DNA of 50,106 nt from a virus. This document shows positions 4,130-49,426 of this stretch, in pieces. The position numbers and the translations under genes are program-made. The notes beneath the pieces were generated by a model, which saw nothing but the letters and a program-made list of their open reading frames with translations, was not told the DNA's origin and ran no database searches. The stretch spans positions 1 to 50,106 of IMG/VR virus record IMGVR_UViG_3300027754_000138. One strand, written 5' to 3'. How positions within the stretch are numbered: position 1 is the first letter of the stretch; each line of letters opens with the position of its first letter.

Positions 4130-4139
4130 GATATTTATT
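4130..4139 (+). promoter_or_regulatory. Putative late promoter motif GATATTTATT
   Basis: GATATTTATT begins at the last base of the gp55 stop codon, 11 bases before the ATG at 4151. It is flanked directly by TTAA on both sides. It would drive the tail operon beginning with the 144-residue protein and gp5. Confidence 0.55.
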
Positions 4140-4150
4140 TTAAAGTAAAT

Positions 4151-4585
4151 ATGGAATTTGATATAGAAATTTTTAAAGGTAAATCATTTTCTGATTTAAT
4201 GAAAGACATTTATTCTAACAGTACTAAAAAAGATCGTCAAATAAATTTGTTAATTGGCGAGCTTCGTCCATTAATTAAAAACATTGGAGATGCTACAGTT
4301 ATTGTTCCATTAATAAAAGAGTATTTAGAAGTAGGAGTTAAAAATGACGAGCATTTAGTTAAGCTAGCTGCCGTTGTTCAACGTTTAGTTTCTACTAATA
4401 ACAGAGTTCAATCTGAAACTGGTAACTCTTGGATGTTAACAGAAGAAGAAAAAAAGCAATTAATAGGAGAGTTAGATGAAATTGCAGGAGCTAATAGCGA
4501 AGTCAATGCAAAAGTTGTTAATTTATCATCTAAGCAAACTCAAATAGAATCAGAGTTAAATGATATTCAAGACGGATTAGTTTAA
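4151..4585 (+). CDS. Hypothetical protein upstream of gp5
   Basis: A 144-residue, largely helical acidic protein with no recognised family. It is the first gene after a putative late promoter and is directly adjacent to the gp5-like hub gene (stop TAA at 4583-4585, next ATG at 4586, no gap), so it is probably made late and may act in baseplate assembly, for example as a chaperone or hub component. That role is inferred from position only. Residues 95-140 have coiled-coil character. Confidence 0.7.
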   Translation: MEFDIEIFKGKSFSDLMKDIYSNSTKKDRQINLLIGELRPLIKNIGDATVIVPLIKEYLEVGVKNDEHLVKLAAVVQRLVSTNNRVQSETGNSWMLTEEEKKQLIGELDEIAGANSEVNAKVVNLSSKQTQIESELNDIQDGLV

Positions 4586-5974
4586 ATGCAACAGTCAGTA
4601 ATAGAATTATTAGCAGGAGAGGTAGTAGAAGTAATATATACTGATTTAACTCCGCAATTAGTATATGGAATCAAAGTTAAAATATTAGATGGCCAACTAG
4701 TTGATCCTGAAATACCTGAAATATCACCTTCGATAATTACCGCCGTTCCATTAAATTTTAGTTACATTAGAGTTCCGATAATCGGAGAAATTGTTTTATT
4801 AATTGACGCACCCGATTCTTATTCAAATGGAATAACAGATTCTAGAACAATGTATTATCTAGACATAGTTAGTTTAAATTTTAGTATTCATAACAACGCA
4901 TTGCCAACAGTGTCTGCTAAAACTATTACTACGGAAGTTAGTGGAGATGATAAAAAATACAATGAATCTGCTGCAGGTGATACCAAGCAATCTAAGCCAC
5001 CAAAAGTAGACAACGATTTTTCAGAAAATATCGCAGTTAAATCACTTCAACCTTATGTAGGAGATGTTATTATTTCAGGGCGATATGGAAATTCTATTAG
5101 ATTTTCAACCACACCTAAATCTGGAAATTTTAAAATTCCACCAAATTTTTCAAAAGCAATTGGACAGCCTATTACTATATATAGAAATACAACTCAAAGT
5201 ACAGACACTAAAGAAATTAATGATTTTATTACAGAAGATTTTACCAATGAAGAAAATGTAATTGTACAAGCTTCTGGGCAAGAATTAAAATTTGAACAAG
5301 CTTCTGGAGTATTAACTGCTAATAAAAAATACAAAATAAATTCTTGGAAAGATGAAAAATGGGGTGTTACTCCACAAACTTTAATTTCTTCCGGACGAAT
5401 TATATTTAATAGCACTCAAAAAGAAATTATAGCTTTTGCAAAAAACGGTATAGGTCTTTCATCAGAAACGTCAATTACTATTGACGCTAAAGAAACTATA
5501 TCATTAAATGCAACTAAAATTGAATTAGGTACTGATTCTAAAGAAGCTTTAATATTAGGTAATGCATTTAAAACTTGGATGGAAAATTTAATTCAAATAT
5601 TAGGTACAATTACGCCTATATCACCAGTTGCTGGACCATGTATACCATTGTTGCTTACACCGCAATGGGCTGGTGTTGAGTCGCTTAAAGCTCAAATAGA
5701 GACGTTGTTATTAAGTGAAGTTTCTTTTACTAAAAAGAAAGCATCAGTTAGCTCAGAAGCTTCTAGTACAATTGAAACAAGACCAGCTCCAACACTTAAA
5801 GACTTTGAAATGACTCCGGAAGAAAAAGAAGAGGCTGAAAAAATTCAAGAATTTGCTAACGATGCTATTACAAAAGCTGTTGATTTAAATGACGATGAAA
5901 TTGCTGGACTCCATGATGCGTATAATAAAACTACGGATCAACTATTTAATGAAGAAAATTACGATATTAGTTAA
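4586..5974 (+). CDS. 5: Baseplate central spike/hub protein, gp5-like
   Basis: A 462-residue protein matching the gp5/VgrG type of tail spike protein. The N-terminal ~110 residues have the pattern of the gp5 OB-fold (VKILDGQ..., SYIRVPIIGEIVLLI). A second conserved part around 155-175 (VGDVIISGRYGNSIRFS) is found in gp5 proteins of marine T4-like phages. Residues 265-315 show short alternating strands (GRIIFNSTQKEIIAFAKNGI and following) typical of the spike beta-helix. There is no lysozyme domain between the OB fold and the helix, unlike T4 gp5; the next two genes may supply that activity. The C-terminus is an acidic helical tail. Confidence 0.8.
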   Translation: MQQSVIELLAGEVVEVIYTDLTPQLVYGIKVKILDGQLVDPEIPEISPSIITAVPLNFSYIRVPIIGEIVLLIDAPDSYSNGITDSRTMYYLDIVSLNFSIHNNALPTVSAKTITTEVSGDDKKYNESAAGDTKQSKPPKVDNDFSENIAVKSLQPYVGDVIISGRYGNSIRFSTTPKSGNFKIPPNFSKAIGQPITIYRNTTQSTDTKEINDFITEDFTNEENVIVQASGQELKFEQASGVLTANKKYKINSWKDEKWGVTPQTLISSGRIIFNSTQKEIIAFAKNGIGLSSETSITIDAKETISLNATKIELGTDSKEALILGNAFKTWMENLIQILGTITPISPVAGPCIPLLLTPQWAGVESLKAQIETLLLSEVSFTKKKASVSSEASSTIETRPAPTLKDFEMTPEEKEEAEKIQEFANDAITKAVDLNDDEIAGLHDAYNKTTDQLFNEENYDIS

Positions 5975-5980
5975 TATATT

Positions 5981-8050
5981 ATGCCTGAACCATTCCCAAC
6001 ATTATATAATGAGCCTGAAGAAGGAACCCAAGGAGCGTCAAGCTCCTACGGAGCCGCGTCTGAAAATACACTGCAAGCTGATTTAGAATCTCAAGCATTT
6101 AATTCAACAGCTTTTATAACATACTATGATAGTCATAATGAAGAAGATGAAGAGGAATTATATAAACAAGCGGCAATTAAAGAAGGTAGTGATGTAGCTG
6201 GTAGAGAAAATCCTACTGTCGATGCCGATTCCGATACACCAATGGCAGGATTGGTTATAACAACAGCGGAACAGGAGCAAGAGCTTATCAATGATATCAT
6301 CGCAGCCAACCCGGGTCAGTTCCCTGCCGGTGTTGAAATCCCGGATCATACTCGAGCTATTATAGCAGTTTCTGTACCTGTAAAAACTATACCTACAGAA
6401 AAAATATTTGTAGATAAAATTGATGAAAATGTAGAAGATGAAGAATTAAAAATACTTACAGCTAAAGATAAAGCTGTAATTGATCTAACAAAGCCTAAAG
6501 AGCCTAACGATAATGATCTGGTCGTAGCTTTAAATGCGCTAATAACTAGTGCACAAAAAACAAAATCAATTAAAGTAGCGAAATTAGCTTTAACAGATTT
6601 AAATAAACCTATTTTAGAAGATATTATTGTATCTCCTAATACAACTAGCTATAAAGGAGCTAGAGTTAATGAGTATTTAAGTACTGTTAACTGCAATCCT
6701 GGTAACGTACCATGGGGAACAGGAGCAGTAGCTACTTGGTGGAAAGAAGCCGGAGCAGAATTACCAAGTGGTCAATCTAAAGCTGGAAAAAAATTCTTAC
6801 TTAACGCAGCACCTAGTTGGTTAATTTGGGCTCAAGAAAGTAATCGATTTGCAGAAACTCCAGATATTGGTACAATTGCTGTATATGGAACAAAAACAAT
6901 TAATAAAAAGAAAAAAACTATAATGACAGCTACTGAGCTAGGCATAGTAGTTGGTCAAAAAGTTACAGACGCTAACACTGCTATAATAGAGGTAGTAAAA
7001 ACTAAAAATGTTATACTAAATAAATATCCAATTGATGCAGACCCAATTGCACCGACTGGTCCAGCTAAAGACCCAAGAATAGCGGAAAATATAGCTAAAA
7101 TAACAGCGAAATGGAAAGGTGCAAAGGCTGACCGATTTGGTATAATTAAAACTGAAAGTACAGCCTTTAATGATTTAACTAAAGGAATAGTCAAAATTGA
7201 AGGAGGTTATCTACATCCAGCACATTTTATAAAATTCCCTGCAGTTATTGGAAACTTCAACTCTAAAGCATGGTTATTAGATAAACCAGATTATACAATG
7301 TTTGATCAATCTGGCGAAACTTTATGGGGTCTCGATCGAAATGCTGGACAAACAGAAAACAGACCCGAAGGAAAAGAATTCTGGAGAATTGTAGATTTAC
7401 ATTCTGGATTTGGACAATGGGGTAAACAAGCTGGGTTTCAAGCTAAAAAGGGAGATTTGCAAGCAGATGGCAGATGTTGTAGATGGTTACACGCAAATAT
7501 TCCACCTAATGGAGTTAGATCTGATGGAAGTTGGAAATATCCCGGGACATGGAATCATTATCATGTACCTACAGCTGCTGAAGGATATGAAGAGTTATGG
7601 AAAGCTATGGGTGCATTACAGGAGAAAAATTATAAAGATAAGACTGCATATCACTTTGGACCTAAAGTAGACAATGGAAAATACAACGAACTACTTGCAT
7701 TGATTAATTCCGATGGGCGATTTATGTTTTGGTATTACAGATTGTTATGGAATGGATCTGGAATTTTAGCTAATGCCGCAAGAAATTTAAAAAGTATTTG
7801 GAATGCAGGAGAAAGAGATTTGGAATATCTTTTAACTGCGAATATGCTATATTTACATAATGCTTATTCAGATGATATAATTCGAAGCAGCTGTGCTGCT
7901 GTTAAACATTTAACAGGTTTAGGATCTTCTATAACAGGCAAAGCAGCTAATTCACCTCCTATATTAAATTCTTTACTATTAACTAAAGTAGAAGTTAATC
8001 CAACTTCAATACTAGGTTTTATATACACTGACCCATTAACTACAAAATAA
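5981..8050 (+). CDS. Tail-associated muramidase-like protein with degenerate CHAP/NlpC-like domain
   Basis: A 689-residue protein encoded 6 bases after gp5. The first ~200 residues are acidic and low in pattern. Residues ~225-303 resemble a CHAP/NlpC-type cysteine hydrolase module (VPWGTGAVATWWKEAG at 243-258, later DIGTIAVYG), but the usual catalytic Cys after PW is Gly246, so this module is probably inactive. Residues ~395-510 contain the segment KGIVKIEGGYLHP with Glu407, and then GETLWGLDRNAG, the order seen in GH108-type N-acetylmuramidases (EGGY followed by GG-T-x-GI). Its likely role is cutting peptidoglycan during DNA injection, in place of the lysozyme domain missing from gp5. The family assignment rests on short motifs only. 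Confidence 0.6.
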   Translation: MPEPFPTLYNEPEEGTQGASSSYGAASENTLQADLESQAFNSTAFITYYDSHNEEDEEELYKQAAIKEGSDVAGRENPTVDADSDTPMAGLVITTAEQEQELINDIIAANPGQFPAGVEIPDHTRAIIAVSVPVKTIPTEKIFVDKIDENVEDEELKILTAKDKAVIDLTKPKEPNDNDLVVALNALITSAQKTKSIKVAKLALTDLNKPILEDIIVSPNTTSYKGARVNEYLSTVNCNPGNVPWGTGAVATWWKEAGAELPSGQSKAGKKFLLNAAPSWLIWAQESNRFAETPDIGTIAVYGTKTINKKKKTIMTATELGIVVGQKVTDANTAIIEVVKTKNVILNKYPIDADPIAPTGPAKDPRIAENIAKITAKWKGAKADRFGIIKTESTAFNDLTKGIVKIEGGYLHPAHFIKFPAVIGNFNSKAWLLDKPDYTMFDQSGETLWGLDRNAGQTENRPEGKEFWRIVDLHSGFGQWGKQAGFQAKKGDLQADGRCCRWLHANIPPNGVRSDGSWKYPGTWNHYHVPTAAEGYEELWKAMGALQEKNYKDKTAYHFGPKVDNGKYNELLALINSDGRFMFWYYRLLWNGSGILANAARNLKSIWNAGERDLEYLLTANMLYLHNAYSDDIIRSSCAAVKHLTGLGSSITGKAANSPPILNSLLLTKVEVNPTSILGFIYTDPLTTK

Positions 8051-8052
8051 TT

Positions 8053-8787: not shown

Positions 8788-8830
8788 ATTTAAGATATAC
8801 AAATAATATACATAATAAAAATACAATAAA

Positions 8831-8840
8831 GATATTTATT
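8831..8840 (+). promoter_or_regulatory. Putative late promoter motif GATATTTATT
   Basis: GATATTTATT lies 14 bases upstream of the ATG at 8855 in a 67-base AT-rich intergenic gap, at the start of the gp25-gp6 operon. Confidence 0.55.
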
Positions 8841-8854
8841 AAAAATATAGTACA

Positions 8855-9789: not shown

Positions 9790-9794
9790 AATAT

Positions 9795-12793: not shown

Positions 12794-12795
12794 CA

Positions 12796-14691
12796 ATGGC
12801 AATACAATCAAAAACAGTAGCTAAATTAAAATCTGAAGTTTTACAAACTAGCTCACGACCTTATGAATTAATAGAGTATAATCCAGATAAATTAAAAACC
12901 GGAGAAATAAATCCAGAATTAATTAATTCTAATATTACTACATATGAAAGAAGTAGAGCTGGCACTGTAATTATCGACAAAAATCTAGATAATTTAATTA
13001 ATCAAAAAATGTTAATTAGTTTAAATACTACTAAAATTTCAAATGCTAGATTTAATCAAATAATTGATACTGAATTTCAAGATTTCCCTCCATCTCCAGA
13101 TGCTTCATTAATGTTTTTAGAAGGTAAATTGGCATTGTTAGAATCGAAAATAATAAAAGGTGGCACTGAAAATTCTGCTTTAAAAGCTCAAATTGCAGAT
13201 TTAAAAAGCCAAATTGATAAATTAAAAGAAATTAATAAATTAATATCTCAACCAATAATTAATGAAATCCCAGATTCTATGCCATATGGTATAGAATTAA
13301 ATGCCGACGAATCAGGATTTGGAAGTATGTTATTATCTAAAAATAGAAAAGCTCTTGCAAAATTAAGCGTAAATAGTGTATATGATAATACTGGTACACA
13401 AATTGCAGGAGGGTTTAAAATTACTTTAGGAAATTACAATGAAGTAGGTACTTTAATTGACGGTGAAGAAAAAATTACATTTGCTCCGAAATTTTCTGGT
13501 AATATAACTAATAAAGAGTTGACAAACGGAGAGGCTATTCAATATTTAGCAAATCATTCAGATTTAGAAAGAGCTTTTAAAGAACCTACAGTTGCTGCTA
13601 CAGGCGCGCTAGCAACAATTAAAGCGGTAACTGAGTTGAGTCAAGCAGTACCTGCGATAATTCGCGATATATCAATGACAAAAATTGACAAAACCGTTAC
13701 TGTTGCTCAAAAAGGAACTGCACGAACTGCATTTAATAACAATTTAGCCCAAACGGTTACTCTACCTGCTTCTGACAATAGTGGTGTGGGTATACCGAAA
13801 CTAATTAAAGACTGGCTTAATCAAGATTTAGGCCTTGCAATTGTAAATGGAATTCCAGGCGATGGAGCATTGTCTTATACAAGACTATCAGCAAAAATTC
13901 AAGAACGCTACGGTTATTGGACCACTGAAAGAGACAATCCAGATCTAGGAATTAAAACTGTTAGAGACTTTTGGCGATTATCAGTATATGGATCAATGGT
14001 CACTACCATTAATAGCTTTAACTTACAATACCCGGAATGGCAAAATGATGGCGTAACTGAAATAAGATCGCCAGATGTAAACTCGGCAAATTATAAACTG
14101 GCACAAAAACAATTAAAAGTTGTACGTGATAAATTAGCTCAAGATATTGTTGATGACAAAGATATGACAGACTTTGCATCTGGACCAATTTATACAATTC
14201 CATATGCTCCAACAAAAGCAATACCTATAAATGATTTAATAAGTGAAGCTACTCGAAATGTATTAAAGCAAAAGCAAGGCTTAGATTTAATTGCAGCAGC
14301 TAAAGGTCATTGGATTTATGCGAGAACGAGACCAGAAGAGCTTGACCATAGATCTTATTTATCTGATGCTCAAGCACGTGCATATTTAAATAATTATGGT
14401 GATTTACGAGACGCGTTCGGCGATGATTTACTGCAAGCCAAACGACATTGGAATTTTAATGGATTAAATGAAGGTAGATCGGTATCTATGGGAACTTCAT
14501 TATTACGCATATGGAGAAATGAAGTGGAGAAAAAAGGCTATATAGAAATAGTAAAAACAAATCCATGGCACGTAAGATGGTCTTCTGAATATATACCTTT
14601 ATCAAAATCTTCTAGAATATTTTTAGATGACAATGGAATTTTATATTTATATGACAAAGATAAAATAGTTTGGCAATCTTTTAACGAATAA
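12796..14691 (+). CDS. Tail/baseplate structural protein with coiled coil and AYL-DL-AF repeats
   Basis: A 631-residue protein. Residues ~103-150 form a heptad-rich coiled coil. Two copies of a short repeat are visible: AIQYLANHSDLERAF (247-261) and ARAYLNNYGDLRDAFG (527-542), the second followed by AKRHWNFNGLNEGRS. This YL-x4-DL-x2-AF...H...G-x-x-EGR pattern is a known repeat of bacterial and phage surface proteins. The final ~60 residues contain short Trp/Tyr-rich strands. It starts 2 bases after the preceding gene. Probably part of the baseplate periphery or a fibre attachment protein; the exact role is unknown. Confidence 0.65.
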   Translation: MAIQSKTVAKLKSEVLQTSSRPYELIEYNPDKLKTGEINPELINSNITTYERSRAGTVIIDKNLDNLINQKMLISLNTTKISNARFNQIIDTEFQDFPPSPDASLMFLEGKLALLESKIIKGGTENSALKAQIADLKSQIDKLKEINKLISQPIINEIPDSMPYGIELNADESGFGSMLLSKNRKALAKLSVNSVYDNTGTQIAGGFKITLGNYNEVGTLIDGEEKITFAPKFSGNITNKELTNGEAIQYLANHSDLERAFKEPTVAATGALATIKAVTELSQAVPAIIRDISMTKIDKTVTVAQKGTARTAFNNNLAQTVTLPASDNSGVGIPKLIKDWLNQDLGLAIVNGIPGDGALSYTRLSAKIQERYGYWTTERDNPDLGIKTVRDFWRLSVYGSMVTTINSFNLQYPEWQNDGVTEIRSPDVNSANYKLAQKQLKVVRDKLAQDIVDDKDMTDFASGPIYTIPYAPTKAIPINDLISEATRNVLKQKQGLDLIAAAKGHWIYARTRPEELDHRSYLSDAQARAYLNNYGDLRDAFGDDLLQAKRHWNFNGLNEGRSVSMGTSLLRIWRNEVEKKGYIEIVKTNPWHVRWSSEYIPLSKSSRIFLDDNGILYLYDKDKIVWQSFNE

Positions 14692-14717: not shown

Positions 14718-14727
14718 GATATTTATA
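14718..14727 (+). promoter_or_regulatory. Putative late promoter motif GATATTTATA
   Basis: GATATTTATA lies only 7 bases upstream of the ATG at 14735, so a transcript started ~6 bases downstream would be almost leaderless. The left end of the motif forms the right arm of a 7-bp inverted repeat (AATATCT at 14705-14711, AGATATT at 14717-14723). Confidence 0.55.
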
Positions 14728-14734: not shown

Positions 14735-17700
14735 ATGTTATCAGTTTACACTAATCAACAAAAATTACTAGCCGCTTCTGGCACTACTAAAGTATCTAGA
14801 ATAGAATCAGTTGATTCAGAACTTTTAGATACTAGAAAATTTTCATTAACGTTTAAACCTCAATCTCTTGCTAAACCTATAGATTTAGAATTGCATGTAT
14901 ACACTCCAGACGGAGCGTATTTAACTGGTAATCATAAAATTCCTTATAATATTGGCAATAATAAAACTAATAACATAGTTAATACTTATCAACATTTAAT
15001 TTTTGATGCAGTTGCTGAATTAGATAAATTAGGAGTAACTAGAGGGCAGTATAAATTAATATATAATTTATTTAGTAATATATTAGGATCATACTCTGGA
15101 CAAAAATTATGGATTAAAGAAATTTCTCCTTCTAGAAGAGAATTAAGAATTCAATTATCGGATACCAATCAAGGTACTTTAATTAATCAATATACATCTT
15201 TTAAAACTCATTGGGAAGAATTAGCGATTAATAATATATTTGATTCATTTGTATTAAATTTTGGATTTAACGAAACATTTCAAATAATTAACGCGCGATT
15301 TACTTATTCTGAAAATACGCCAGAATTAATAGTTAAATTATATAATCCGCTACCCGGCAAATACGGAGAAAAAGCTAAATTATGGATTTCTGAAGAGTTA
15401 ATTACTCCTATATTAGATACAATATCTATTATTCCAAAGTTTATTCCAAATCCTACAAATACATTAGCAGGACCTAATTTTGAATTAGAAGAATTTGATG
15501 GAGGCTCTGTAGCTACAAACTATAAAAATTGGAATGATTTATTATCTTCTAATTTACAAACTTCACAACAATTAATTGATGCACAATTTTCAGGATCATT
15601 AAGTGGAATTAAATTAAACACTAGCTTTAAAATATTTGATAATTTTGTACATTACAGCTCCGCTGTTGAAAGAGTTAAAAATTTCAAATATAAAATAGAA
15701 TTAATTGAACATTTTAATGAGCGTATTCAAGCCGTTTCTCAAGTTAATGGCGGAGATATTACTCAACTTAATTTAGCTGATTTTTATATAAAGCGAAATC
15801 GTGTAGTAAGTGGATTTGACGATTTTGAAAAGTATTTATTTTTTGAATCAACTGGTAGCATTTTATATACTCATGTAGGAGAAGCTTCTGGATCATTGAC
15901 AATTGATTTAATACAGCCATGGCCAAAAACAACTCCAATACCATTGCAATGGCAAGCTGCTTTTATGCAATGGAGTACTGCAGCGACTGAATGGAAAATA
16001 GGAGCTGCTCCTGATCCATATGGATATTTTTCCATACAAGAATCTTCAACTACCGATACAGCATCTAATTATTATTATAATTTGTTAGAAATTGCTGACA
16101 TTTACGATAAGCGAAATATTCATAAACTGCAAGATACTATACCATCACATATACAAGAATCTTCCGACGGAGAGCAATATTCTTTATTTATCAACATGGT
16201 AGGTCAGCATTTTGATATTATATGGAGGTATATAAAAGGGTTAACTGATATTCATAAACGTGAAGAACATCCTAAAGATGGAATGGCAGATGATATGTTG
16301 TATCAAGTAGCTACTTCATTAGGATTTACTTTATTAAACGGAAAATCAGGTTCTGAATTATGGAAATACTCTTTAGGAGTTGATGAAAATGGAGTAGCAT
16401 TAAAATCAGAGGTTAATAACATTGCATCACTTACAGATGAAAAAAATACAAAAGAAATTTGGAGAAGAATAGTTAATAATTTACCTTACATTTTAAAATC
16501 TAAAGGAACTTCTAGATCAATTAAAGCATTGCTTTCTTGCTTTGGAATTCCATCGACTGTATTAACTATTAAAGAATATGGAGGACCTAGCACATTTACA
16601 GATAATAATCATTATCCACAATATGTGCATGATAAATTTCATTATGCATGGTTTGCAAACACTGCTACCGGTAGTTTACAAATACCAAGTAAACAATATA
16701 TTAATGGATTAAAAACTTTAGTTGATCCAAATACTTTAGAATTTCGATTTAAAACGGATAATAATTATAAATACGGGCGAGATACTTTTTATAATTTACT
16801 TTCCGTTTCTAGCGGTTCAATAGGAGATAAATTTAATTTATCTTTAATTAAAGAAACTGACAATGATAAACAAGGAACTGTAGTATTATTTAATTCACAA
16901 ACAGGTACCGCAATATCAGCATCTAATTTAGAAATATTTGATAATAATTGGGTTACTGTTGCAATACAATCAATTAATAACACAGGCTCATTTAAAGTTG
17001 CAAAATCATTATATGGTAAACAAATATATATAGCATCTGCTAGCATTTACGGAGCATTGAATATATTTCCGGGAACTATAACATTTAGTTCAGGCTCTAG
17101 ACAAATAACTCCAGTTTCACTATCATATGGAAATAGTATAGTAAGTTCTCTAAATAAATTTAATGGCCATTATCAAGAAATACGTTTATGGTCTGGATCA
17201 CTAACTGACAATACACTTATAGAGCATGCTAGTTCTCCGGATACATACACATTCAATGTAGATCGAACTTTATTAACTACAGGAACTGAATCTGCTAAAC
17301 CATATGAACATTTATTACAAAGATTTTCGTTATCAAGTAAAGTAATATTAAGTGGATCGTTTTATCAGCCGTCAATACATCCTAATCAAACAATTAATAC
17401 AGGTTCAATATTTTTCACCGGATATTATACATCCGGTTCAATAACTTTTGAAGGATTTGAAGAAACTTATTACACTCCTTCTCCTTCGCTAGGAGCTAGC
17501 AGTTTATATTCAAATAAAGTAAGAATTGAATCTTCTAGTTTAGATGTTAATGCTAGATTGAATACTAAAACAAGAATTGAAAAATCTTCGTTTGATAGAT
17601 ATTCTCTAGATTCAAATCGTATAGGAGTTTATTTTTCTCCTCAAACTGCAATTAACGAAGACATATTTAATCAATTAGGTTATTTTGAAATTGATGATTA

Positions 17701-19333
17701 TATAGGAGATCCTTCAGATTTATTAAACGATACATATACTGTATTAAATAATTTTGCAATTAATTATTGGAAAAAATACGAAAATAGAAACGATTTCGAA
17801 GCTTACTTTCGTGCTTTACAAATATATGATTTTACACTATTTAAATACATTAAACGATTACTTCCACAAAGAGTTAATTCTATTGTAGGATTAGTAGTTG
17901 AACCTAACGTTTTAGAAAGAAATAGAGTTAAAATTTTAAATAAGCCAGTAATTGAAGATTTAACGTTAGGATTTTCATTGCCAGTAAAAAATGCGGCAAC
18001 AGCTTCTGGAGTGTATCAATTAATTACAGCTACAATTCCTCCTCCATTAAATGAATTAAATTCAACTCACATTGAAGTACCGCTTGGAATTATAACTTCA
18101 AATCCAGACCCTACATCAGAAAACATTTCAGTTGCAGCTGGATTTATAGAACGTCCACTATTATTACACTCAATAGCAATTAATAATATACCTGGATTAA
18201 TTAACTCTGATATAGATCAAGTAAATAAATTAGGAACTAATTGGATTGAAAATAAATATTTTGCAGTTAAATCTGAAGGTAAATATAAAAAAGCTGAAAC
18301 TGGCTCTTATAAACCAATTCAACTTGTAGTGCTTAATGAACGAGATTATACCAGAAAAGAATATAGTTATGTAACTAGCGCTTCATTGGAACCTTCATCT
18401 TCATTGATAATTAGCTCTTCATTTATAGTTAGCTCATCAATGGTAATTAGTTCATCACTTATACCTAGTTCATCAATGGTTCCGGCCGGCAACACTATTT
18501 ATTTCAGTACATCTTCTATATTGTTTTCTGCATCTTACAGCCCTCCTGATTTATTGTTAGTTTCTAGAAGTACAAACGTAACTGCTAGTATTACTCTTAC
18601 AATAACAGGATCAGGAAATTATATTGGATTAACTGGTTTGTTTGGAGCTCAATTGCGAGTTGTAGTAGAACAAGAAGACGTTGGCACGCCATTAGAATAT
18701 TATTATGTTAAAGGCGGAGTGGAATCTCAAATAACTAATTTATCACCAAACCCTAGCCCGGGTGTTTTTCCATACACACTTAGCTCCAGCTTTTTTTCGT
18801 TTATCAATCCAGCTACACCAACAAAACTAGAAATTAGAAATTCTAGCATGGGGATGACAGCTGAAATTAGTAATGTTAGTTTTGTAGAAATATTTTCCTA
18901 TAGCTCATCTATATCTAGTTCATTGGTACCTTCATCTTCATTGATACCTTCCTCTTCATTAATACCTTCATCATCATTGATATTTTCATCTTCATTGATA
19001 CCATCTTCTTCATTGATACCATCCTCTTCAATAACATCATCATCATTTGTAGTATATCAAATGGAACCTAAATTTCAAGGTACTGGATATAAAAATGGTA
19101 GATATGAAGGATCTAAATTAACAGGATTTGATATTAACATAAATTCCAGACAAACGGTAGATGGAGGACCAGTAGTTAAAGTAACTCAAGTCAATCCAAA
19201 TCAAATTGTATTTGCAAACAATCAATTAACTACTCTTGATCGAGCTAATACTAGCGATTTAATTTCATTATCTCCATTAACTTCAAATAACGCTGTATCT
19301 GCAAATGCTGCAATTAATAGAGGTGCTGGATAA
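14735..19333 (+). CDS. Very large tail structural protein with LamG fold and SSSLIP hexapeptide repeats
   Basis: A 1532-residue virion protein, the largest in the window. Residues ~500-620 contain a segment (RRIVNNLPYILKSKGTSRSI, then LLSCFGIPSTVLTIKEYGG) like tail-protein-I type baseplate modules. Residues ~640-850 have the strand order of a LamG/concanavalin-like jelly roll. A further conserved part lies at ~1030-1075 (FTLFKYIKRLLPQRVNSIVG). Residues 1216-1250 and 1390-1437 are hexapeptide repeats of the SSSLIP type flanking a ~140-residue beta insert. The C-terminus ends in a Gly/Asn-rich stretch. The protein probably belongs to the baseplate rim and carries a receptor-binding or decoration region; it has its own late promoter motif. 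Confidence 0.7.
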   Translation: MLSVYTNQQKLLAASGTTKVSRIESVDSELLDTRKFSLTFKPQSLAKPIDLELHVYTPDGAYLTGNHKIPYNIGNNKTNNIVNTYQHLIFDAVAELDKLGVTRGQYKLIYNLFSNILGSYSGQKLWIKEISPSRRELRIQLSDTNQGTLINQYTSFKTHWEELAINNIFDSFVLNFGFNETFQIINARFTYSENTPELIVKLYNPLPGKYGEKAKLWISEELITPILDTISIIPKFIPNPTNTLAGPNFELEEFDGGSVATNYKNWNDLLSSNLQTSQQLIDAQFSGSLSGIKLNTSFKIFDNFVHYSSAVERVKNFKYKIELIEHFNERIQAVSQVNGGDITQLNLADFYIKRNRVVSGFDDFEKYLFFESTGSILYTHVGEASGSLTIDLIQPWPKTTPIPLQWQAAFMQWSTAATEWKIGAAPDPYGYFSIQESSTTDTASNYYYNLLEIADIYDKRNIHKLQDTIPSHIQESSDGEQYSLFINMVGQHFDIIWRYIKGLTDIHKREEHPKDGMADDMLYQVATSLGFTLLNGKSGSELWKYSLGVDENGVALKSEVNNIASLTDEKNTKEIWRRIVNNLPYILKSKGTSRSIKALLSCFGIPSTVLTIKEYGGPSTFTDNNHYPQYVHDKFHYAWFANTATGSLQIPSKQYINGLKTLVDPNTLEFRFKTDNNYKYGRDTFYNLLSVSSGSIGDKFNLSLIKETDNDKQGTVVLFNSQTGTAISASNLEIFDNNWVTVAIQSINNTGSFKVAKSLYGKQIYIASASIYGALNIFPGTITFSSGSRQITPVSLSYGNSIVSSLNKFNGHYQEIRLWSGSLTDNTLIEHASSPDTYTFNVDRTLLTTGTESAKPYEHLLQRFSLSSKVILSGSFYQPSIHPNQTINTGSIFFTGYYTSGSITFEGFEETYYTPSPSLGASSLYSNKVRIESSSLDVNARLNTKTRIEKSSFDRYSLDSNRIGVYFSPQTAINEDIFNQLGYFEIDDYIGDPSDLLNDTYTVLNNFAINYWKKYENRNDFEAYFRALQIYDFTLFKYIKRLLPQRVNSIVGLVVEPNVLERNRVKILNKPVIEDLTLGFSLPVKNAATASGVYQLITATIPPPLNELNSTHIEVPLGIITSNPDPTSENISVAAGFIERPLLLHSIAINNIPGLINSDIDQVNKLGTNWIENKYFAVKSEGKYKKAETGSYKPIQLVVLNERDYTRKEYSYVTSASLEPSSSLIISSSFIVSSSMVISSSLIPSSSMVPAGNTIYFSTSSILFSASYSPPDLLLVSRSTNVTASITLTITGSGNYIGLTGLFGAQLRVVVEQEDVGTPLEYYYVKGGVESQITNLSPNPSPGVFPYTLSSSFFSFINPATPTKLEIRNSSMGMTAEISNVSFVEIFSYSSSISSSLVPSSSLIPSSSLIPSSSLIFSSSLIPSSSLIPSSSITSSSFVVYQMEPKFQGTGYKNGRYEGSKLTGFDININSRQTVDGGPVVKVTQVNPNQIVFANNQLTTLDRANTSDLISLSPLTSNNAVSANAAINRGAG
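18380..18484 (+). repeat. Hexapeptide-encoding repeat block 1 (SSSxxx)
   Basis: Imperfect 18-base repeats encoding Ser-Ser-Ser followed by three mostly hydrophobic residues (SSSLII, SSSFIV, SSSMVI, SSSLIP, SSSMVP). It is diverged relative to block 2. Confidence 0.85.
18902..19045 (+). repeat. Hexapeptide-encoding tandem repeat block 2 (SSSLIP)
   Basis: About eight 18-base units of the type TTCATCTTCATTGATACC encode SSSLVP/SSSLIP/SSSLIF units. The units are more alike than in block 1, and unit number could vary by slippage without a frame change. Confidence 0.9.
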
Positions 19334-19369: not shown

Positions 19370-19379
19370 TATATTTATT
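19370..19379 (+). promoter_or_regulatory. Putative late promoter motif TATATTTATT
   Basis: TATATTTATT lies 17 bases upstream of the ATG at 19397. An 8-bp inverted repeat (TAATAAAT at 19331-19338, ATTTATTA at 19373-19380) pairs its right end with the preceding stop-codon region; being pure A/T this may be chance. Confidence 0.5.
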
Positions 19380-21292: not shown

Positions 21293-21326
21293 ATAGGCTC
21301 TTTGATATTTATATTAAAGAGCCTAT
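21293..21326 (+). promoter_or_regulatory. 11-bp hairpin with late promoter motif in its loop
   Basis: Perfect inverted repeat ATAGGCTCTTT (21293-21303) and AAAGAGCCTAT (21316-21326) around a 12-base loop containing GATATTTATA (21304-21313). The stem has four G-C pairs in a very AT-rich region. It can act on read-through RNA as a terminator or translation block, while transcripts started from the loop would lack the left arm. The ATG of the next gene is at 21336. Confidence 0.75.
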
Positions 21327-24008: not shown

Positions 24009-24047
24009 TATTTGTTTTATTGAAATAAATATACTATATTAGTCTTA

Positions 24048-27900: not shown

Positions 27901-28153
27901 ATCGTCATTAGCTATTAGAACTGCTTTAATAAACATATCATCGCTGCCTAGACCTAATTTTCTAGCTATTGATGAAGGATTTGGAGTTTTAGATTCTAAT
28001 AATTTAAATTCCATGTTTAATTTATTTGAGTATCTTAAAACTCAATTTTCTTTTATGTTAGTAATATCACATATCGATTCCATGAAAGATGTAGTTGATA
28101 AATTAATTGAAATTACTAAAATCAATGGAAATTCTAAGATCTATTACATTTAG
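24995..28153 (+). CDS. 47-46: Fused Mre11-Rad50-type recombination nuclease (gp47-gp46 in one chain)
   Basis: A 1052-residue uninterrupted chain. Residues 1-~250 are a calcineurin-like phosphoesterase (gp47/SbcD): Asp19-x-His21, GGD at 55-57, GNHD at 91-94, His161-His162 and GDIH at 195-198. From ~375 a Rad50/SbcC ATPase (gp46) follows: Walker A GIFAPNASGKST (404-415), Q-loop region (LSVQNN), two coiled-coil arms with a zinc hook Cys726-x2-Cys729, signature SGMEKF (963-968) and Walker B FLAIDEG (989-995). T4 and most relatives encode these as two genes. The complex resects DNA ends for recombination-dependent replication. Confidence 0.92.
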   Translation: MKKIEIGLNKIDKIYHIADIHIRNLKRHQEYKTVFERTAEVVKKTLGPNDIIFLGGDIVHAKTDMTPELIQSVQEFFKMFADIAPTILITGNHDCNLNNVSRLDALTPIVNALNHPNLHYLKESGVYHISDKHFVVMSVFDKPKDFIKANSFKGDFKIALHHGAVNNAMTDIGFRLQNDHVNIDTFDGYKLTLLGDIHKPAQYLNQEKTIAYCGSLVQQNYGEALIHGMLVWDTNTCTSEFIEIPNDICYYTLEIENGNYNPISSIISNKTIRLRVKVKNTESADLKKIIAEIKSQHNIEEYTIQKINDFTQNQDKSQKINIGDVRDVEYQNELISKYLENKFALDDEMLDGIRHVNRTVNSGLPTLEISRNVSWTPKKFEFSNMFSYGIDNVIDFSNMKGVFGIFAPNASGKSTMLDSITYCIFDKCSRTSKASSVLNNKSNSFKCKFNFELDNKNYFIEKIGTKGRGEHVRVDVDFYSIDDLGNKESLNGKERSETNDHIRNLVGTYEDFVLTALSVQNNNTGFIDMAQKDRKDLLAQFLDINIFEDLYSIAGNDIKEVATLVKEYQKQDFATQLSDALIDIDTYSKQHKSYLIDKEELNTKITNINTEILKLTSDLVPVDSSIENIFELETLVTKCNALLNQINTQLTENNVSLTNAIDVILLIEMSLNDYNIVEIKERITIYNELKNSELIFYGQIEKQKAEIRIKEDKMSKLNDLKYDENCLFCMDNIFVKDAITTKSLIQNDKENLISLNTKLQEIIDKMTKLSIAVHEQETYYDFQKKLTQANTNKNSIESVINDLKTKRGLAETKLLETQRKVNEYYTKEAVIKNNKEIKTSILLLNTTMDNFKNELNDVNDLILTCYSNLLVAQKDKEKAEDSIDKLKNLTKQYKFYEYYLIAVNRDGIPYDLITMAVPHIEQEINNILTQLVDFSIMLEMDGKNINCYIVYDQDNFWAIELTSGMEKFISSLAIRTALINISSLPRPNFLAIDEGFGVLDSNNLNSMFNLFEYLKTQFSFMLVISHIDSMKDVVDKLIEITKINGNSKIYYI

Positions 28154-28186
28154 ATATTTATATTTATATAAGTATCCTAATGTAAT
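28143..28186 (+). promoter_or_regulatory. 8-bp inverted repeat framing a late promoter motif
   Basis: ATTACATT (28143-28150) and AATGTAAT (28179-28186) frame GATATTTATA (28153-28162). The left arm lies in the last codons of the nuclease gene, and the right arm ends 2 bases before the ATG at 28189, so read-through RNA could mask that start. Confidence 0.6.
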
Positions 28187-30457: not shown

Positions 30458-30467
30458 GATATTTATT
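30458..30467 (+). promoter_or_regulatory. Putative late promoter motif GATATTTATT
   Basis: GATATTTATT lies 13 bases upstream of the ATG at 30481. Confidence 0.55.
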
Positions 30468-32551: not shown

Positions 32552-32561
32552 TATATTTATT
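32552..32561 (+). promoter_or_regulatory. Putative late promoter motif TATATTTATT
   Basis: TATATTTATT directly follows the stop codon of the ligase fusion and lies 9 bases before the ATG at 32571. A 5-bp inverted repeat (ACTTT at 32537-32541, AAAGT at 32565-32569) frames it. Confidence 0.5.
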
Positions 32562-38141: not shown

Positions 38142-38182
38142 CATTACTAGCTTTATATTTATATAATATAAAAGTAATGTTA
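38139..38182 (+). promoter_or_regulatory. Long hairpin holding a late promoter motif and the next start codon
   Basis: TAACATTACT (38139-38148) pairs perfectly with AGTAATGTTA (38173-38182); inside, TTTATATT (38152-38159) pairs with AATATAAA (38165-38172). The promoter-like TATATTTATA (38154-38163) sits in the inner part. The right arm contains the ATG of the next gene (38177-38179), and the left arm contains the stop of the previous gene. In read-through RNA the start would be buried; RNA started inside would lack the left arm. Confidence 0.75.
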
Positions 38183-40493: not shown

Positions 40494-40528
40494 ATTAGGG
40501 TTTTAGATATTTATTTAAAATAGCTAAT
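40494..40528 (+). promoter_or_regulatory. Inverted repeat whose loop is a late promoter motif
   Basis: TTTTA (40501-40505) and TAAAA (40516-40520) enclose exactly GATATTTATT (40506-40515); an outer pair ATTAG (40494-40498) / CTAAT (40524-40528) extends the stem past a small internal loop. The ATG of the portal gene is at 40534. Confidence 0.55.
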
Positions 40529-42415: not shown

Positions 42416-42440
42416 TTACTATCTCCATATTTATTAGTAA
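42416..42440 (+). promoter_or_regulatory. Short inverted repeat around late promoter motif CATATTTATT
   Basis: TTACTA (42416-42421) and TAGTAA (42435-42440) flank CATATTTATT (42426-42435). It lies 22-26 bases upstream of the ATG at 42462, at the start of the prohead core gene cluster. Confidence 0.5.
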
Positions 42441-42461
42441 AGAAAATAAAAGCCTTTCTGA

Positions 42462-43307: not shown

Positions 43308-43320
43308 TTACTATTAATTT

Positions 43321-43845: not shown

Positions 43846-43846
43846 T

Positions 43847-44452
43847 ATGGAAAAAAAATTAATAGTAGACTATATTACATTTAACGTTACTCCGGAACAA
43901 ATAAATGAGTCTATGGAAAAAAACAATGGACGATTAATGGTTAAAGGCGTATTACAACGTGCAGAAGCTAAAAATCAAAACGGGAGAGTATATCCTAGAA
44001 ATGTATTAATGCGTGAAGCAAAAAAATATTCTGATATTAATATAAAAGAAAGAAGAGCTTTAGGAGAATTAGATCATCCAGATTCTTCAGTAGTAAATTT
44101 AAATAACGTGTCTCATAACATTACAGAAATGCATTGGCAAGAGAATGATTTAGTTGGAACTGTAGAAGTGCTTTCAACTCCTTCAGGTAATATTTTAAAA
44201 GAGTTATTTAAGTGTGGTATTAAATTAGGAATTTCTTCTAGAGGTTTAGGATCTGTAAAAGAATTAGGAGAAGGCAAAGTAGAAGTGCAAGATGATTTTG
44301 AATTAATTGCTTTTGACTTTGTATCTAATCCATCTACTCAAGGAGCTTTTCTAGCTCCAGTTAATGAATCAATGCAACATGGTTTAATTAAACCATCTAA
44401 ATATGCAAAAGTTAATCGATTAATTACCGATATATTATCAGACATTAAATAA
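43847..44452 (+). CDS. 21: Prohead core protease, gp21-like
   Basis: A 201-residue protease of the T4 gp21/S80 type. Catalytic His77 lies in RALGELDHPDSS, and the nucleophile is Ser130 or Ser131 in LGISSRGLGS; FELIAFDFVSNPS (151-163) closes the fold, with Asp157 a possible triad member. T4 gp21 cuts scaffold, core, internal and capsid proteins after (I/L)xE. The length is close to T4 gp21 (212 residues). Its upstream core and downstream scaffold and capsid genes complete the expected assembly module. Confidence 0.9.
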   Translation: MEKKLIVDYITFNVTPEQINESMEKNNGRLMVKGVLQRAEAKNQNGRVYPRNVLMREAKKYSDINIKERRALGELDHPDSSVVNLNNVSHNITEMHWQENDLVGTVEVLSTPSGNILKELFKCGIKLGISSRGLGSVKELGEGKVEVQDDFELIAFDFVSNPSTQGAFLAPVNESMQHGLIKPSKYAKVNRLITDILSDIK

Positions 44453-44460
44453 TTATTAAT

Positions 44461-45065: not shown

Positions 45066-45124
45066 AATGTTATTTATGTATAAAAAAAGCAATTAAATTA
45101 GAAAATATGAAATTAAATAAATAA

Positions 45125-45691: not shown

Positions 45692-45695
45692 TAAT

Positions 45696-46499
45696 ATGAA
45701 ATTAGCTCCTATAGCACAAAATGTTATAACGACAAATCTTATAAAACTTTTAACAGAATCCGCAACTGGAGATGCAGAGTCAGTGCAAGCACAAATGTCT
45801 GCTTTAAGTACTGAACTTAAAAAAGACGGAGAAGATATTACAGACGATGAAGTTCAAGCAGCTATGCTTTCTGCATTAATAGATGCAGACGGTAAAGTTG
45901 ATGATATTAACGTATCTGATGTTGATGCTATAAAAAAAGAAATTAAAGAATCTAGGTCTTATTTAAATGAAGTCGATGGTATATTACATTCTATTGAAGC
46001 TGTTGGTACTGTATTAGGTAATTCCGCATTTATACACATTTTAACTGAAGGATTAAATAAAATAGGATTTACCGGCGTTGATGAAAATAAATTAAAAGCT
46101 AGAATTGAAAAAGTAGTTTCTGCAATTAAAAGTGTAACAGGCTTTCCAGCTAAAATAATGGATAAAGCTTTTTCTTGGTTTGCTAAAAAATTAGGAGTTG
46201 GAGAACTAGGACAAAAAATAGCTGGTATAGCAGGAGTATTATTAGTTACAATTGTTTTATTAGCTCTTGCAGCTTATTTATTTCCTTCAATTACATCAGG
46301 AATATTAATTGTATTTGCTATTTCAGGAATGGTCGGAAAAAGTTTAGAAATTTTTAAATTAATTAAAAAATTAATAGCACATATCAAAGAACATCAAGCT
46401 GAAATTAACTCTGACTCTAAAGAAGATAATACTAAATCAACTACTAAACCTAGCGCCGCTCGACAGCGATACTTAAATAGAAAAACTAAGCCACAGTAG
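45696..46499 (+). CDS. Membrane-associated head-cluster protein
   Basis: A 267-residue protein. The N-terminal ~25 residues contain LIKLLTESATG, similar to the leader sites of its neighbours. Residues ~30-165 are acidic and helical. Two hydrophobic helices follow at about 174-196 and 201-217, then a basic helix and a polar tail. A two-helix membrane protein next to scaffold genes may serve as a prohead initiation or membrane-anchoring factor, comparable in role to T4 gp31/gp40-dependent assembly, but this is speculation. Confidence 0.55.
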   Translation: MKLAPIAQNVITTNLIKLLTESATGDAESVQAQMSALSTELKKDGEDITDDEVQAAMLSALIDADGKVDDINVSDVDAIKKEIKESRSYLNEVDGILHSIEAVGTVLGNSAFIHILTEGLNKIGFTGVDENKLKARIEKVVSAIKSVTGFPAKIMDKAFSWFAKKLGVGELGQKIAGIAGVLLVTIVLLALAAYLFPSITSGILIVFAISGMVGKSLEIFKLIKKLIAHIKEHQAEINSDSKEDNTKSTTKPSAARQRYLNRKTKPQ

Positions 46500-46579
46500 T
46501 TAGTACTCTATTATAGATACTTAACTTAAAATTTCTTAAAAATATTTCATACAAATGGATAGGTTTTTCTGTCTATGTA

Positions 46580-46589
46580 CATATTTATT
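46580..46589 (+). promoter_or_regulatory. Putative late promoter motif CATATTTATT
   Basis: CATATTTATT lies 103 bases upstream of the scaffold ATG, the only site in the window with a long predicted leader. The 192-base gap 46500-46692 is the largest intergenic region. Confidence 0.55.
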
Positions 46590-46604
46590 ATCGTAACGCA
46601 CAAT

Positions 46605-46665
46605 ACCTTATTTCTATATAAGGTGCAATAAAATAACTATTTTATTAAGATTTCCAATAATCTTA
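46605..46665 (+). promoter_or_regulatory. Three consecutive stem-loops in the scaffold gene leader
   Basis: Hairpin 1: ACCTTAT/ATAAGGT (46605-46624, loop 6). Hairpin 2: AATAAAAT/ATTTTATT (46627-46646, loop 4). Hairpin 3: TAAGATT/AATCTTA (46646-46665, loop 6). All lie between the promoter motif and the ATG at 46693, which has an AGGA sequence 5 bases before it. They may control stability or translation of the scaffold-capsid mRNA. Confidence 0.6.
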
Positions 46666-46692
46666 TTTCCAATTAAAAACAATAAAAGGACA

Positions 46693-47616
46693 ATGAAAGA
46701 CCTATTAAAAGAAGCTATTGCTGATGCAAAAGCGGTGAGACAAACTGCGCTAGCAAATGCGAAGATGGCTCTAGAAGAAGCTTTCACTCCAAGACTTCAA
46801 TCTATGTTGTCTGCTAAATTAGCTGAAGACTTGTCTGACGAAGACGAGACTGACGAAAATGATGCAATACCAACAGAAGAAGAAGAAACGGAAATGAAAG
46901 AAAAACCAGAAATGGAAGAAGGCGACGAAATGCCAGAAGAAGGCGACGAAGTGCCAGAAGAAGGCGACGAAGTGCCAGAAGAAGAACCGACTATGGAAGG
47001 TGAAGAAGATGATTTAGATTTAGAAGAAATTATCAGAGAATTAGAAGGCGACGAAAACCCAGCAATGGAAGAGCCGTCTATGGAAGAAGAAAAGAAGCGA
47101 AGTGATATGACTCAGTCTGAAAAAGATGAGTATGATGCAGAAAGCAGACGTTTGACATCCGAAGAAGATGAAGAAATCAACATTGAAGAAATCATTAGAT
47201 CTTTACGTGAAGAAGATGAGGAACAAGAATTACCAGAAGAAGAAAAAACAGAAGAAGTACCTGCAGAAGAGCTTGAAGAAGCTTATAATGTAATACGATT
47301 CTTAAAAGGCAAAATTAATGAAGTAAATTTATTAAATGCTAAACTTTTGTATTCTAATAAATTATTCCGTAATTTTTCTTTAAATGAAGGACAAAAAATG
47401 AAAGTGATCGAAAATTTCGATAGAGCTTTTACTTTGCGTGAAGTAAAATTAGTATATTCAACTTTAGCTGAAGGCTTTAAAATGCCATCAACTAGAAAAG
47501 TAGTTAAAGAATCGTTTGCCTCGAAGCCTATTGCTTCAACAAAACCTGCAAGGCAAATAATTTCTGAAAGTACTGAATTAGCTAATCGTTTCAAAAAACT
47601 AGCAGGATTAAAATAA
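46693..47616 (+). CDS. 22: Prohead scaffold protein, gp22-like
   Basis: A 307-residue, very acidic protein directly upstream of the major capsid gene. The leader MKDLLKEAIADAKAVRQTAL resembles the start of T4 gp22. Residues ~45-195 are Glu/Asp-rich and low in complexity, with three 7-residue repeats EEGDE(M/V)P at 75-95. The helical C-terminal part (FLKGKINEVNLLNAKLLYSN, LREVKLVYSTLAEGF) is the conserved scaffold region. Scaffold assembles with gp23 and is degraded by gp21 before packaging. Sites such as IISES near the end fit that protease. Confidence 0.85.
   Translation: MKDLLKEAIADAKAVRQTALANAKMALEEAFTPRLQSMLSAKLAEDLSDEDETDENDAIPTEEEETEMKEKPEMEEGDEMPEEGDEVPEEGDEVPEEEPTMEGEEDDLDLEEIIRELEGDENPAMEEPSMEEEKKRSDMTQSEKDEYDAESRRLTSEEDEEINIEEIIRSLREEDEEQELPEEEKTEEVPAEELEEAYNVIRFLKGKINEVNLLNAKLLYSNKLFRNFSLNEGQKMKVIENFDRAFTLREVKLVYSTLAEGFKMPSTRKVVKESFASKPIASTKPARQIISESTELANRFKKLAGLK
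46915..46977 (+). repeat. Three 21-base repeats in the scaffold gene
   Basis: Tandem units encoding EEGDEMP, EEGDEVP and EEGDEVP; the last two are nearly identical at the base level (GAAGAAGGCGACGAAGTGCC). They lie in the acidic linker. Confidence 0.85.
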
Positions 47617-47642
47617 TTAATTAACTTAAAACAAAATTTAAA

Positions 47643-49328
47643 ATGTCATTACATTCAATTTTAAACGAAAGCACATCTGCTGTTCGTAAACAAATGGACG
47701 AGACCAAAGGCTTAGTAGGCAAATGGTCAAAAACCGGTTTGTTAGAAGGAATCGATACCGAGTACGATAGACACGGTATGGCGATTATGCTTGAAAATCA
47801 AGCAAAACAATTAGTAACAGAAGCTAATGCAACTGGTACTGCATCAAACTCAGAACAATGGTCAGGTGTTGCTTTACCATTAGTACGTCGTGTGTTTGCA
47901 GAAATTGCAGCTAAAGACTTCGTATCTGTTCAACCAATGAATTTACCATCAGGTCTTGTATTTTACATGGACTTCAAATATGGTTCATCTCAACCTGGAT
48001 TTAGCACAACTAACACTAGTACTACACCTAGCGCTGCTGGTTATCAAAATAACTCAGTATTTGGTGTAACTTCTGATACTGCAAATGCTTCTCAAGGTCT
48101 TTATGGAGCTGGTCGTTTCGGATATTCAATGAATAAATCAGTTGCTTCTATTAGCGCTTCTGGATCTTTTACTCCAGATGCAACTAAAATTAAAATTAGC
48201 ACTGCATTAACAATGGCATCTGATGCTGACTTAGATGAATTTAACTACGATAGTAATTTTACTACTGCGTTTTCTGCTTCAATTGCTGCAGGTCACTTTA
48301 AGAAACTTACTGTATCTGTTGATTCATTAACTAGTCCAGATTTAGAAGGTGTTCGTGCTTATTCATTATCAGGTTCTAGCACAGGTCATATTAATACTGT
48401 ATTTCCACAATTTACTAAAAATGTTAATGACACAACTTTAACGTTTGTTGTATCTGGATCTATTTTATCTACCGCTGCTGCTGCTAATGTTAATGTTCAA
48501 TATCAAAAACAACCGGCTGCGAGTACTCGTGGTGATTTTGAAGATACTACAGGTAACGGAACTGACATCAATATTCCAGAAATCAATGTTGAATTGAAAT
48601 CTGAAGCTATTGTTGCTAAAACTCGTAAGTTAAAAGCAGTTTGGTCTCCAGAATTTGCTCAAGATTTAAATGCTTATCATTCAATTGATGCTGAAGCTGA
48701 ATTAACTTCTATGTTATCTGAATATATTTCTCAAGAAATTGATTTAGAAATTTTAGATATGTTGATTCAAAATGCAGTGACTACTGAAAATTGGTCAGCA
48801 GCTTTAGGATATGAGTACTCTGCCGCTTCTGATACTTTTGCTAGTATTGGTAATGCTGCTGCAGCTGCTTATACTCAACAAACTTGGTTCCAAACTTTAG
48901 GAACTAAGATTCAAAAAGTATCTAATAAAATTCACCAAAAGACAATGCGTGGTGGTGCAAACTTCTTAGTTTGTTCTCCTGACGTTGCTACTATATTAGA
49001 GTCTATCCCAGGATATGCTGCTGATACTAATGGCGACAAAATGCAGTTTGCAATGGGTGTTCAGAAAGTTGGTATGTTAAATAGCCGCTACACTGTATAC
49101 AAAAACCCATATATGACTGACAACGTAGTGTTATTAGGTTACCGTGGTGCTCAGTTCCTAGAAACAGGAGCTGTGTATGCTCCATACATTCCATTAATTA
49201 TGACTCCATTAGTTTATGATCCTACCAACTTTACTCCACGTAAAGGTGTTATGACTCGTTATGCTAAGAAAATGGTTCGTCCAGAATTTTATGGTACTGT
49301 TAAGATTCATGGTTTACACTTAGTATAA
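47643..49328 (+). CDS. 23: Major capsid protein, gp23-like
   Basis: A 561-residue precursor of the HK97-fold capsid protein. The N-terminal prodomain (1-60) ends QLVTE|ANATG, matching T4 gp23, which is cut by gp21 after Glu65. Then the conserved core begins: LPLVRRVFAEIAAKDFVSVQPMN (in part) with LVFYMDFKYGSS. Later parts MRGGANFLVCSPDVATILE, and the end APYIPLIMTPLVYDP and RYAKKMVRPEFYG are gp23 hallmarks. A Ser/Ala/Thr-rich insert lies at about 110-310. Codon use is visibly richer in C and G-ending codons than neighbours, as expected for the most expressed gene. Confidence 0.93.
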   Translation: MSLHSILNESTSAVRKQMDETKGLVGKWSKTGLLEGIDTEYDRHGMAIMLENQAKQLVTEANATGTASNSEQWSGVALPLVRRVFAEIAAKDFVSVQPMNLPSGLVFYMDFKYGSSQPGFSTTNTSTTPSAAGYQNNSVFGVTSDTANASQGLYGAGRFGYSMNKSVASISASGSFTPDATKIKISTALTMASDADLDEFNYDSNFTTAFSASIAAGHFKKLTVSVDSLTSPDLEGVRAYSLSGSSTGHINTVFPQFTKNVNDTTLTFVVSGSILSTAAAANVNVQYQKQPAASTRGDFEDTTGNGTDINIPEINVELKSEAIVAKTRKLKAVWSPEFAQDLNAYHSIDAEAELTSMLSEYISQEIDLEILDMLIQNAVTTENWSAALGYEYSAASDTFASIGNAAAAAYTQQTWFQTLGTKIQKVSNKIHQKTMRGGANFLVCSPDVATILESIPGYAADTNGDKMQFAMGVQKVGMLNSRYTVYKNPYMTDNVVLLGYRGAQFLETGAVYAPYIPLIMTPLVYDPTNFTPRKGVMTRYAKKMVRPEFYGTVKIHGLHLV

Positions 49329-49351
49329 TCTGAGTAATATTTTATAAGTTT

Positions 49352-49379
49352 GAAAAGGAGTTAGTAATAGCTCCTTTTC
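49352..49379 (+). terminator. Hairpin terminator after the major capsid gene
   Basis: GAAAAGGAG (49352-49360) pairs with CTCCTTTTC (49371-49379), 9 bp plus an optional T-G and T-A pair, loop of 6-10 bases. The T-rich right arm is followed by TACTG, so the U tract is short. It separates capsid from the downstream genes. Confidence 0.65.
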
Positions 49380-49384
49380 TACTG

Positions 49385-49426
49385 ATTAAAATAAAAAGTA
49401 GATATTTATTAGAAATATATTTTAAT
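49385..49426 (+). promoter_or_regulatory. 9-bp inverted repeat around a late promoter motif, ending at a start codon
   Basis: ATTAAAATA (49385-49393) and TATTTTAAT (49418-49426) enclose GATATTTATT (49401-49410). The right arm abuts the ATG at 49427. Read-through RNA from the capsid gene could therefore hide this start, while RNA begun at ~49416 could not form the stem. Confidence 0.65.

Follow-up and report, generated by a model that had tools for sequence, protein, structure and literature searches.

A lone -10-type box as the probable T4-like late promoter of phages around an uncultured T4-related virus

How does a T4-related virus mark the point at which reading of its virion genes begins? 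The question is raised by IMG/VR virus record IMGVR_UViG_3300027754_000138, a virus fragment of 50,106 bases and 70% AT that was analysed at its full length (hereafter the window), whose genes run nearly all rightward and include baseplate, terminase, portal, prohead protease and major head genes. Upstream of many of these genes stands a 10-base motif, [G/T/C]ATATTTAT[T/A], which the original prediction, made from the letters alone, took for a diverged late promoter served by a diverged gp55 encoded at 3335-4129. That reading is well supported by the work reported here. The short signal GATATTTATT is most likely where this virus starts reading its virion genes, and we consider it highly probable that the motif, together with AT-rich DNA that ends in AAA, is a T4-like late promoter read by a gp55-like sigma factor of the phage itself.

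All 13 predicted copies are present, and all lie on the + strand. The form GATATTTATT is found at 4130-4139 (directly 3' of the sigma gene and before gene 4151), 8831-8840 (before gene 8855, in the baseplate region), 30458-30467 (before gene 30481), 40506-40515 (before the portal gene, 40534) and 49401-49410 (before gene 49427). GATATTTATA is found at 14718-14727 (before gene 14735, of 1532 amino acids) and 21304-21313 (before gene 21336), TATATTTATT at 19370-19379 (before gene 19397) and 32552-32561 (before gene 32571), TATATTTATA at 38154-38163 (before gene 38177), and CATATTTATT at 42426-42435 (before gene 42462) and 46580-46589 (112 bases ahead of gene 46693, which itself comes before the major head gene). 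The site at 28153-28168, before gene 28189, is a double one, GATATTTATATTTATA, with a second, overlapping copy at 28159. A perfect inverted repeat, AGGCTCTTT / AAAGAGCCT, spans 21295-21324 and has the 21304 box between its arms, where it would form part of the loop. The proposed spacing, mostly 7-26 bases to the ATG, holds for 12 sites; the box at 46580 stops about 103 bases short of its gene. The sites at 4130 and 32552 adjoin the preceding stop codon and that at 28153 overlaps its last base. The coding-region copy at 14642 is real.

The count against a shuffled control, proposed as a check, is weak for the 10-mer and null for its core. On both strands together the 10-mer occurs 18 times (three on the reverse strand, at 7019, 11291 and 24024) against a shuffle mean of 7.75 (standard deviation 2.99), a figure reached by 1 shuffle in 100, while the 8-mer core ATATTTAT occurs 22 times in the whole window for 19.0 expected. 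Such counts stay near chance because the window is 70% AT. Position and orientation tell a different story: 14 of 15 forward copies of ATATTTAT fall in intergenic bases, which amount to 1,262 bases or 2.5% of the window (binomial P = 6e-22), as against 1 of 7 reverse copies. With the gaps modelled by a first-order Markov chain, 1.1 copies are expected, and none of 5000 runs reached 14. Of the 20 gaps between genes that measure 15 bases or more, 13 contain the box; it is found at the heads of operons and not before tightly packed genes. The case for the box therefore rests on place and strand and not on count, and these are decisive. The original prediction had named a lack of enrichment before genes, relative to a matched control, as its refutation; the element passed this test in the window and in related genomes.

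Megablast of the window against known phages returned zero matches. Judged by head and portal proteins, the closest records are Microcystis phage Mel-JY01, Flavobacterium phage immuto and a 484-kb phage. Next comes Rhodothermus phage RM378, which is closer than other T4-like phages. We assembled 80 portal loci and 80 sigma loci, clade membership being judged by similarity only, and analysed as long relatives G001 (181.6 kb) and G002 (132 kb), which are close, Mel-JY01 and immuto, which are distant, and RM378. The strand bias recurs in them: the non-coding share of ATATTTAT is 42/49 forward against 4/17 reverse in G001, 31/38 against 0/6 in G002 and 23/31 against 1/4 in immuto, and in Mel-JY01 the 50 bases or fewer upstream of genes hold 18 sense and 2 antisense copies. 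The late gaps of the window, G001 and G002 together contain 52 sense copies against 3 antisense, with one-base variants almost nil except for 8 that carry A at the sixth position. In immuto C replaces A in half of the late boxes; CTATTTAT is found there in 13 of 35 late gaps versus 4 of 61 early gaps. In RM378, with genes on both strands, the element is TTATTTAA, sense to each gene and frequently 13-24 bases ahead of the start codon.

The sites are also retained gene by gene. Where a window gene has a site, its orthologue has one in 11 of 12 cases in G001, 10 of 11 in G002, 5 of 9 in Mel-JY01 and 3 of 9 in immuto (6 of 9 counting CTATTTAT); where it has none, the orthologue has one in 0/30, 0/29, 1/19 and 1/14 cases, respectively (2/14 in immuto with CTATTTAT). 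As G001 and G002 are closely related, the figures for Mel-JY01 (P = 0.007) and immuto (P = 0.02 with CTATTTAT; 0.26, not significant, without it) are the more independent. The site before gene 19397 is present in all four relatives compared, though the proteins are just 42-43% identical in the two distant ones. The site at 4130 has orthologous sites in G001, G002 and immuto, and in Mel-JY01 a copy of the box lies at the end of the sigma gene. The double site at 28153 is retained in G001, and that at 32552 in G002 and Mel-JY01 but not in G001 or immuto; before the portal gene, immuto has CTATTTAT.

What kind of element is it? A logo built from 68 sites of the close relatives gives G ATATTTAT T w w A A A and shows no strong conservation further upstream, and no upstream (-33/-35) element emerged from site sets of 68 and 176. 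The box is thus a lone -10-type element followed by AT-rich DNA ending in AAA. With virion (late) and early blocks delimited through homology to virion genes, not through timing, it is present in 58 of 118 late gaps versus 38 of 243 early gaps (P = 6e-11). The early blocks of G001, G002 and immuto have promoters of their own, in two parts, with about 20 bases between a TTG-type element and a TAnnTT box: ATTTGGTA with a box near TTATATTAA in G001, ATTTGG with TTATCTTTAT in G002, and AGTTGC with TATATTTAGGTAT in immuto, where the promoter may also be written GTTG-N20-TATATTTAGG. Their sequence differs from phage to phage; their layout is shared and Bacteroidota-like. The window has two candidates on the + strand, TTTG-N20-TATATT at 24011-24040, before primase gene 24048, and TTTG-N19-TATATT at 1626-1654, before the ClpP-like gene 1672. 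The primase is a replication gene within the virion block and has no late box, and the same region of G001 has ATTTGGTA. The contrast between two-part early promoters and a lone box in the same genomes is the strongest argument for a separate late class.

The same comparison bears on the alternative that best survives, namely that the box is a promoter for the primary sigma factor of a Bacteroidota host, or for another host sigma, with the phage protein uninvolved. The Bacteroidota primary-sigma promoter is TTTG (-33) / TAHHTTTG (-7) (PMC6847099), a layout that the early promoters of these phages match (TTTG or TTG-like, about N20, TAnnTT) and that offers a clue, from promoter layout, to a Bacteroidota host for the window record. 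The late box likewise contains the A at -11 and the TTT of the -7 element, and the -33 element is reportedly weak in F. johnsoniae (PMC6847099). However, the -33 element is missing from every late site set, the near-invariant G of the -7 box (at -5) is A in the late box with hardly any exceptions, position -12 is often G or C, and the phages keep a separate early class with TTTG/TTG-type elements. Given these differences, we believe that recognition by a host sigma factor is unlikely.

Less probable again, and in our judgement very improbable, is that the box is a signal for translation initiation or mRNA processing, or AT-rich background, and no promoter at all. Boxes do lie near start codons in an AT-rich genome, and the whole-window counts are close to chance. 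Yet chance is excluded by the composition controls, the box heads operons and not tightly packed genes, and its distance to the start codon varies, being mostly 15-35 bases in the close relatives, up to 36-50 in the distant ones and 88-128 at the orthologues of gene 46693 in the genomes compared, where the long spacing is retained.

A T4 late promoter has no -35 element; it is a single TATA box set about one turn ahead of the start, and the DNA downstream is AT-rich (PMC2988020). Passed through our pipeline, T4 showed TATAAATA sense in 8 of 11 late gaps, with 1 antisense, and cyanophage S-SM2 showed 4 sense versus 0 antisense copies. The window and its relatives resemble T4 (Straboviridae) and the marine cyanophages in having a lone box, AT-rich DNA downstream, no -35 element, a position before virion genes and a phage-encoded protein with a predicted sigma-2 fold. 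They do not share the T4 consensus itself: sense TATAAATA is absent or rare in the gaps of the window, G001 and G002, where ATATTTAT dominates. Between the T4 box, TA-TAAATA, and the window box, GA-TATTTA-T, the TA--TA skeleton is common while the middle AA has become TT, and the first base is G more often than T, unlike in T4. In Aeromonas phage Aeh1 the late promoter has a/gC for TA at -13/-12 (PMC2988020), the same outer position at which immuto varies, but Aeh1 keeps the TAAATA core. That the sites are ordinary T4 late boxes reversed, driving antisense transcripts, is the least credible alternative of all: the cores TATTTATA and TATAAATA are exact reverse complements of each other, and in T4 itself ATATTTAT turns up mainly where the T4 box is read on the opposite strand, but here the sites stand just 5' of rightward genes with the opposite orientation almost nil in gaps, the conserved flanks (G before, AAA after) are on the sense side, and in RM378 the element follows the strand of each gene.

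If the box is a T4-like late promoter, which protein would read it? The candidate is the 264-residue product of 3335-4129 (+ strand), with a predicted sigma domain 2 at residues of about 28-138, a helix-turn-helix-like C-terminal domain at about 180-249 and the tail KKSEFLD. Pfam, PHROG and PDB sequence searches of this protein gave nothing useful. Its AlphaFold model has a predicted local distance difference test score (pLDDT) of 76; the Foldseek matches of the model are mostly sigma factors, but with E-values above 0.07 in the PDB, and on structural realignment residues 28-138 of the predicted model superpose on sigma domain 2 over 92-101 residues, at 2.4-3.6 Å. With a narrow alignment (A1), hhalign against gp55 was not significant. 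Once the profile had been widened with the homologues of immuto, Mel-JY01 and RM378, it matched gp55 over 93 columns, including the N-terminal segment, with E-values of 0.0005-0.0013 and a score of 31.8, the maximum of 120 shuffled controls being 21.3. The claim of a diverged gp55 is thus supported by a predicted sigma-2 fold and by a profile-profile match above the shuffles, though by no Pfam or PHROG model. A homologue is encoded in 7 of the 7 relatives searched, including RM378, with its own element TTATTTAA, in which it is the unannotated Rm378p020 (17032-17826; E = 4e-11), and this distribution speaks for our overall reading. The immuto homologue lies at 78174-78872 of its record. T4 gp55 has 185 residues and no C-terminal domain, so the window protein is longer by an extra domain and lies outside all gp55 family models. 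Predicted alone, that domain has a pLDDT of 85, and its structural matches are weak, generic helix-turn-helix ones (Z at most 5.5) with no clear family; naming it sigma-4 is not justified.

Several observations weigh against our reading. No family model identifies the 3335-4129 protein as gp55; PHROG 234, the gp55 model, matched neither it nor four of the relatives' homologues, and only weakly the immuto homologue (E = 0.008), and the profile match to gp55 is a modest one. Of the T4 partners, no sliding clamp was identified in the relatives with the Pfam model DNA_PPF, which was also sub-threshold in S-SM2, and gp33 was not identified in the relatives, where no gp33-directed search was made. 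The box also heads 16% of early-block gaps and is therefore not exclusive to late blocks, and the label 'late' comes from gene content, in blocks set by our own homology calls. Since the box misses the exact T4 consensus and the sigma misses the gp55 model, we call the system a T4-like variant and not a member of the T4 class.

Based on these observations, we propose that a late promoter of this kind is very probably common to a wide T4-related clade that includes immuto and, more distantly, RM378. A lone -10-type box, without a -35 element, would stand roughly one helical turn ahead of the transcript start, where the gp55-like sigma on host RNA polymerase would recognise it and so switch on the virion operons. 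Transcripts would begin close to the conserved AAA, 11-13 bases downstream of the first A in ATATTTAT; their leaders would be short and their expression late. That this sigma pairs with the ATATTTAT box is likewise an inference. More speculatively, the late box of T4-related phages could track the -10 element of the host, AA going with TATAAT and TT with TAnnTTTG, and the C-terminal helix-turn-helix-like domain could stand in for gp33, giving an unsplit late sigma with a re-tuned box; we regard this as a tentative idea, with the odds against it.

A hint as to the transcript start comes from gene 46693, before which 46591-46692 forms a structured 5' leader. Across 15 relatives, the two arms of a hairpin near 46645-46668 covary, with 98.9% of cells paired and both sides altered in 25 cells, against 0 of 500 shuffles; another hairpin lies upstream of it, and the leader fold is stable (z = -3.1). 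The 46580 box stands just outside the 5' edge of this apparently transcribed RNA, which hints at a start there. An Rfam search of the leader found no family match, and it may be a novel cis-acting RNA serving head genes.

The tail of the window sigma, KKSEFLD, recalls the clamp-binding tail of T4 gp55 (SLDFLYEAND). Close relatives have it as KKSEFL[DE]; the homologues of immuto, Mel-JY01 and G004 have none. Among the proteins of G001 only the sigma and the family-B polymerase match the clamp-binding tail pattern. The family-B polymerases of relatives (those of G001 and Mel-JY01, with L283 and L284) end in an FF motif (FNKFF, KFFSF, DFFSFS and KFFNFK), which is likely a clamp-binding tail. Homologues of this polymerase and of the clamp loader are present in G001 and Mel-JY01; neither was found in immuto, whose annotated polymerases are of family A. 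A strict link between tail and polymerase was not upheld, as Mel-JY01 and G004 have the polymerase and a sigma without an obvious tail, and a candidate clamp in G001, picked by its position beside the clamp loader, was not confirmed. Directly 3' of the sigma gene, gene 4151-4585 (144 amino acids) is conserved in G001, G002 and immuto, as is its promoter, and matches no family; its product is a possible co-activator. Two ClpP-like protease genes are present in the window. That at 43847-44452 has its orthologue in the prohead protease gene of immuto, and that at 1672-2325, behind its candidate early-type promoter, matches both head-maturation and ATP-dependent protease families.

For the Far-T4 contigs no late promoter or gp55 was reported, and the study found no T4 transcription-regulation core genes in the clade and suggested that transcription might differ (PMC4360716). 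In the literature searched, no paper on the late promoters of Bacteroidota phages or Far-T4 phages was found. RM378, among the nearest sequenced isolates to the window after immuto and Mel-JY01, has the sigma homologue and differs in its element, TTATTTAA. We propose both pieces missing from Far-T4, a promoter together with a candidate sigma factor, for relatives that include the sequenced isolates immuto and RM378, and their presence in such isolates makes the idea testable at the bench. For uncultured phages, the box would yield maps of operons and classes of early and late genes.

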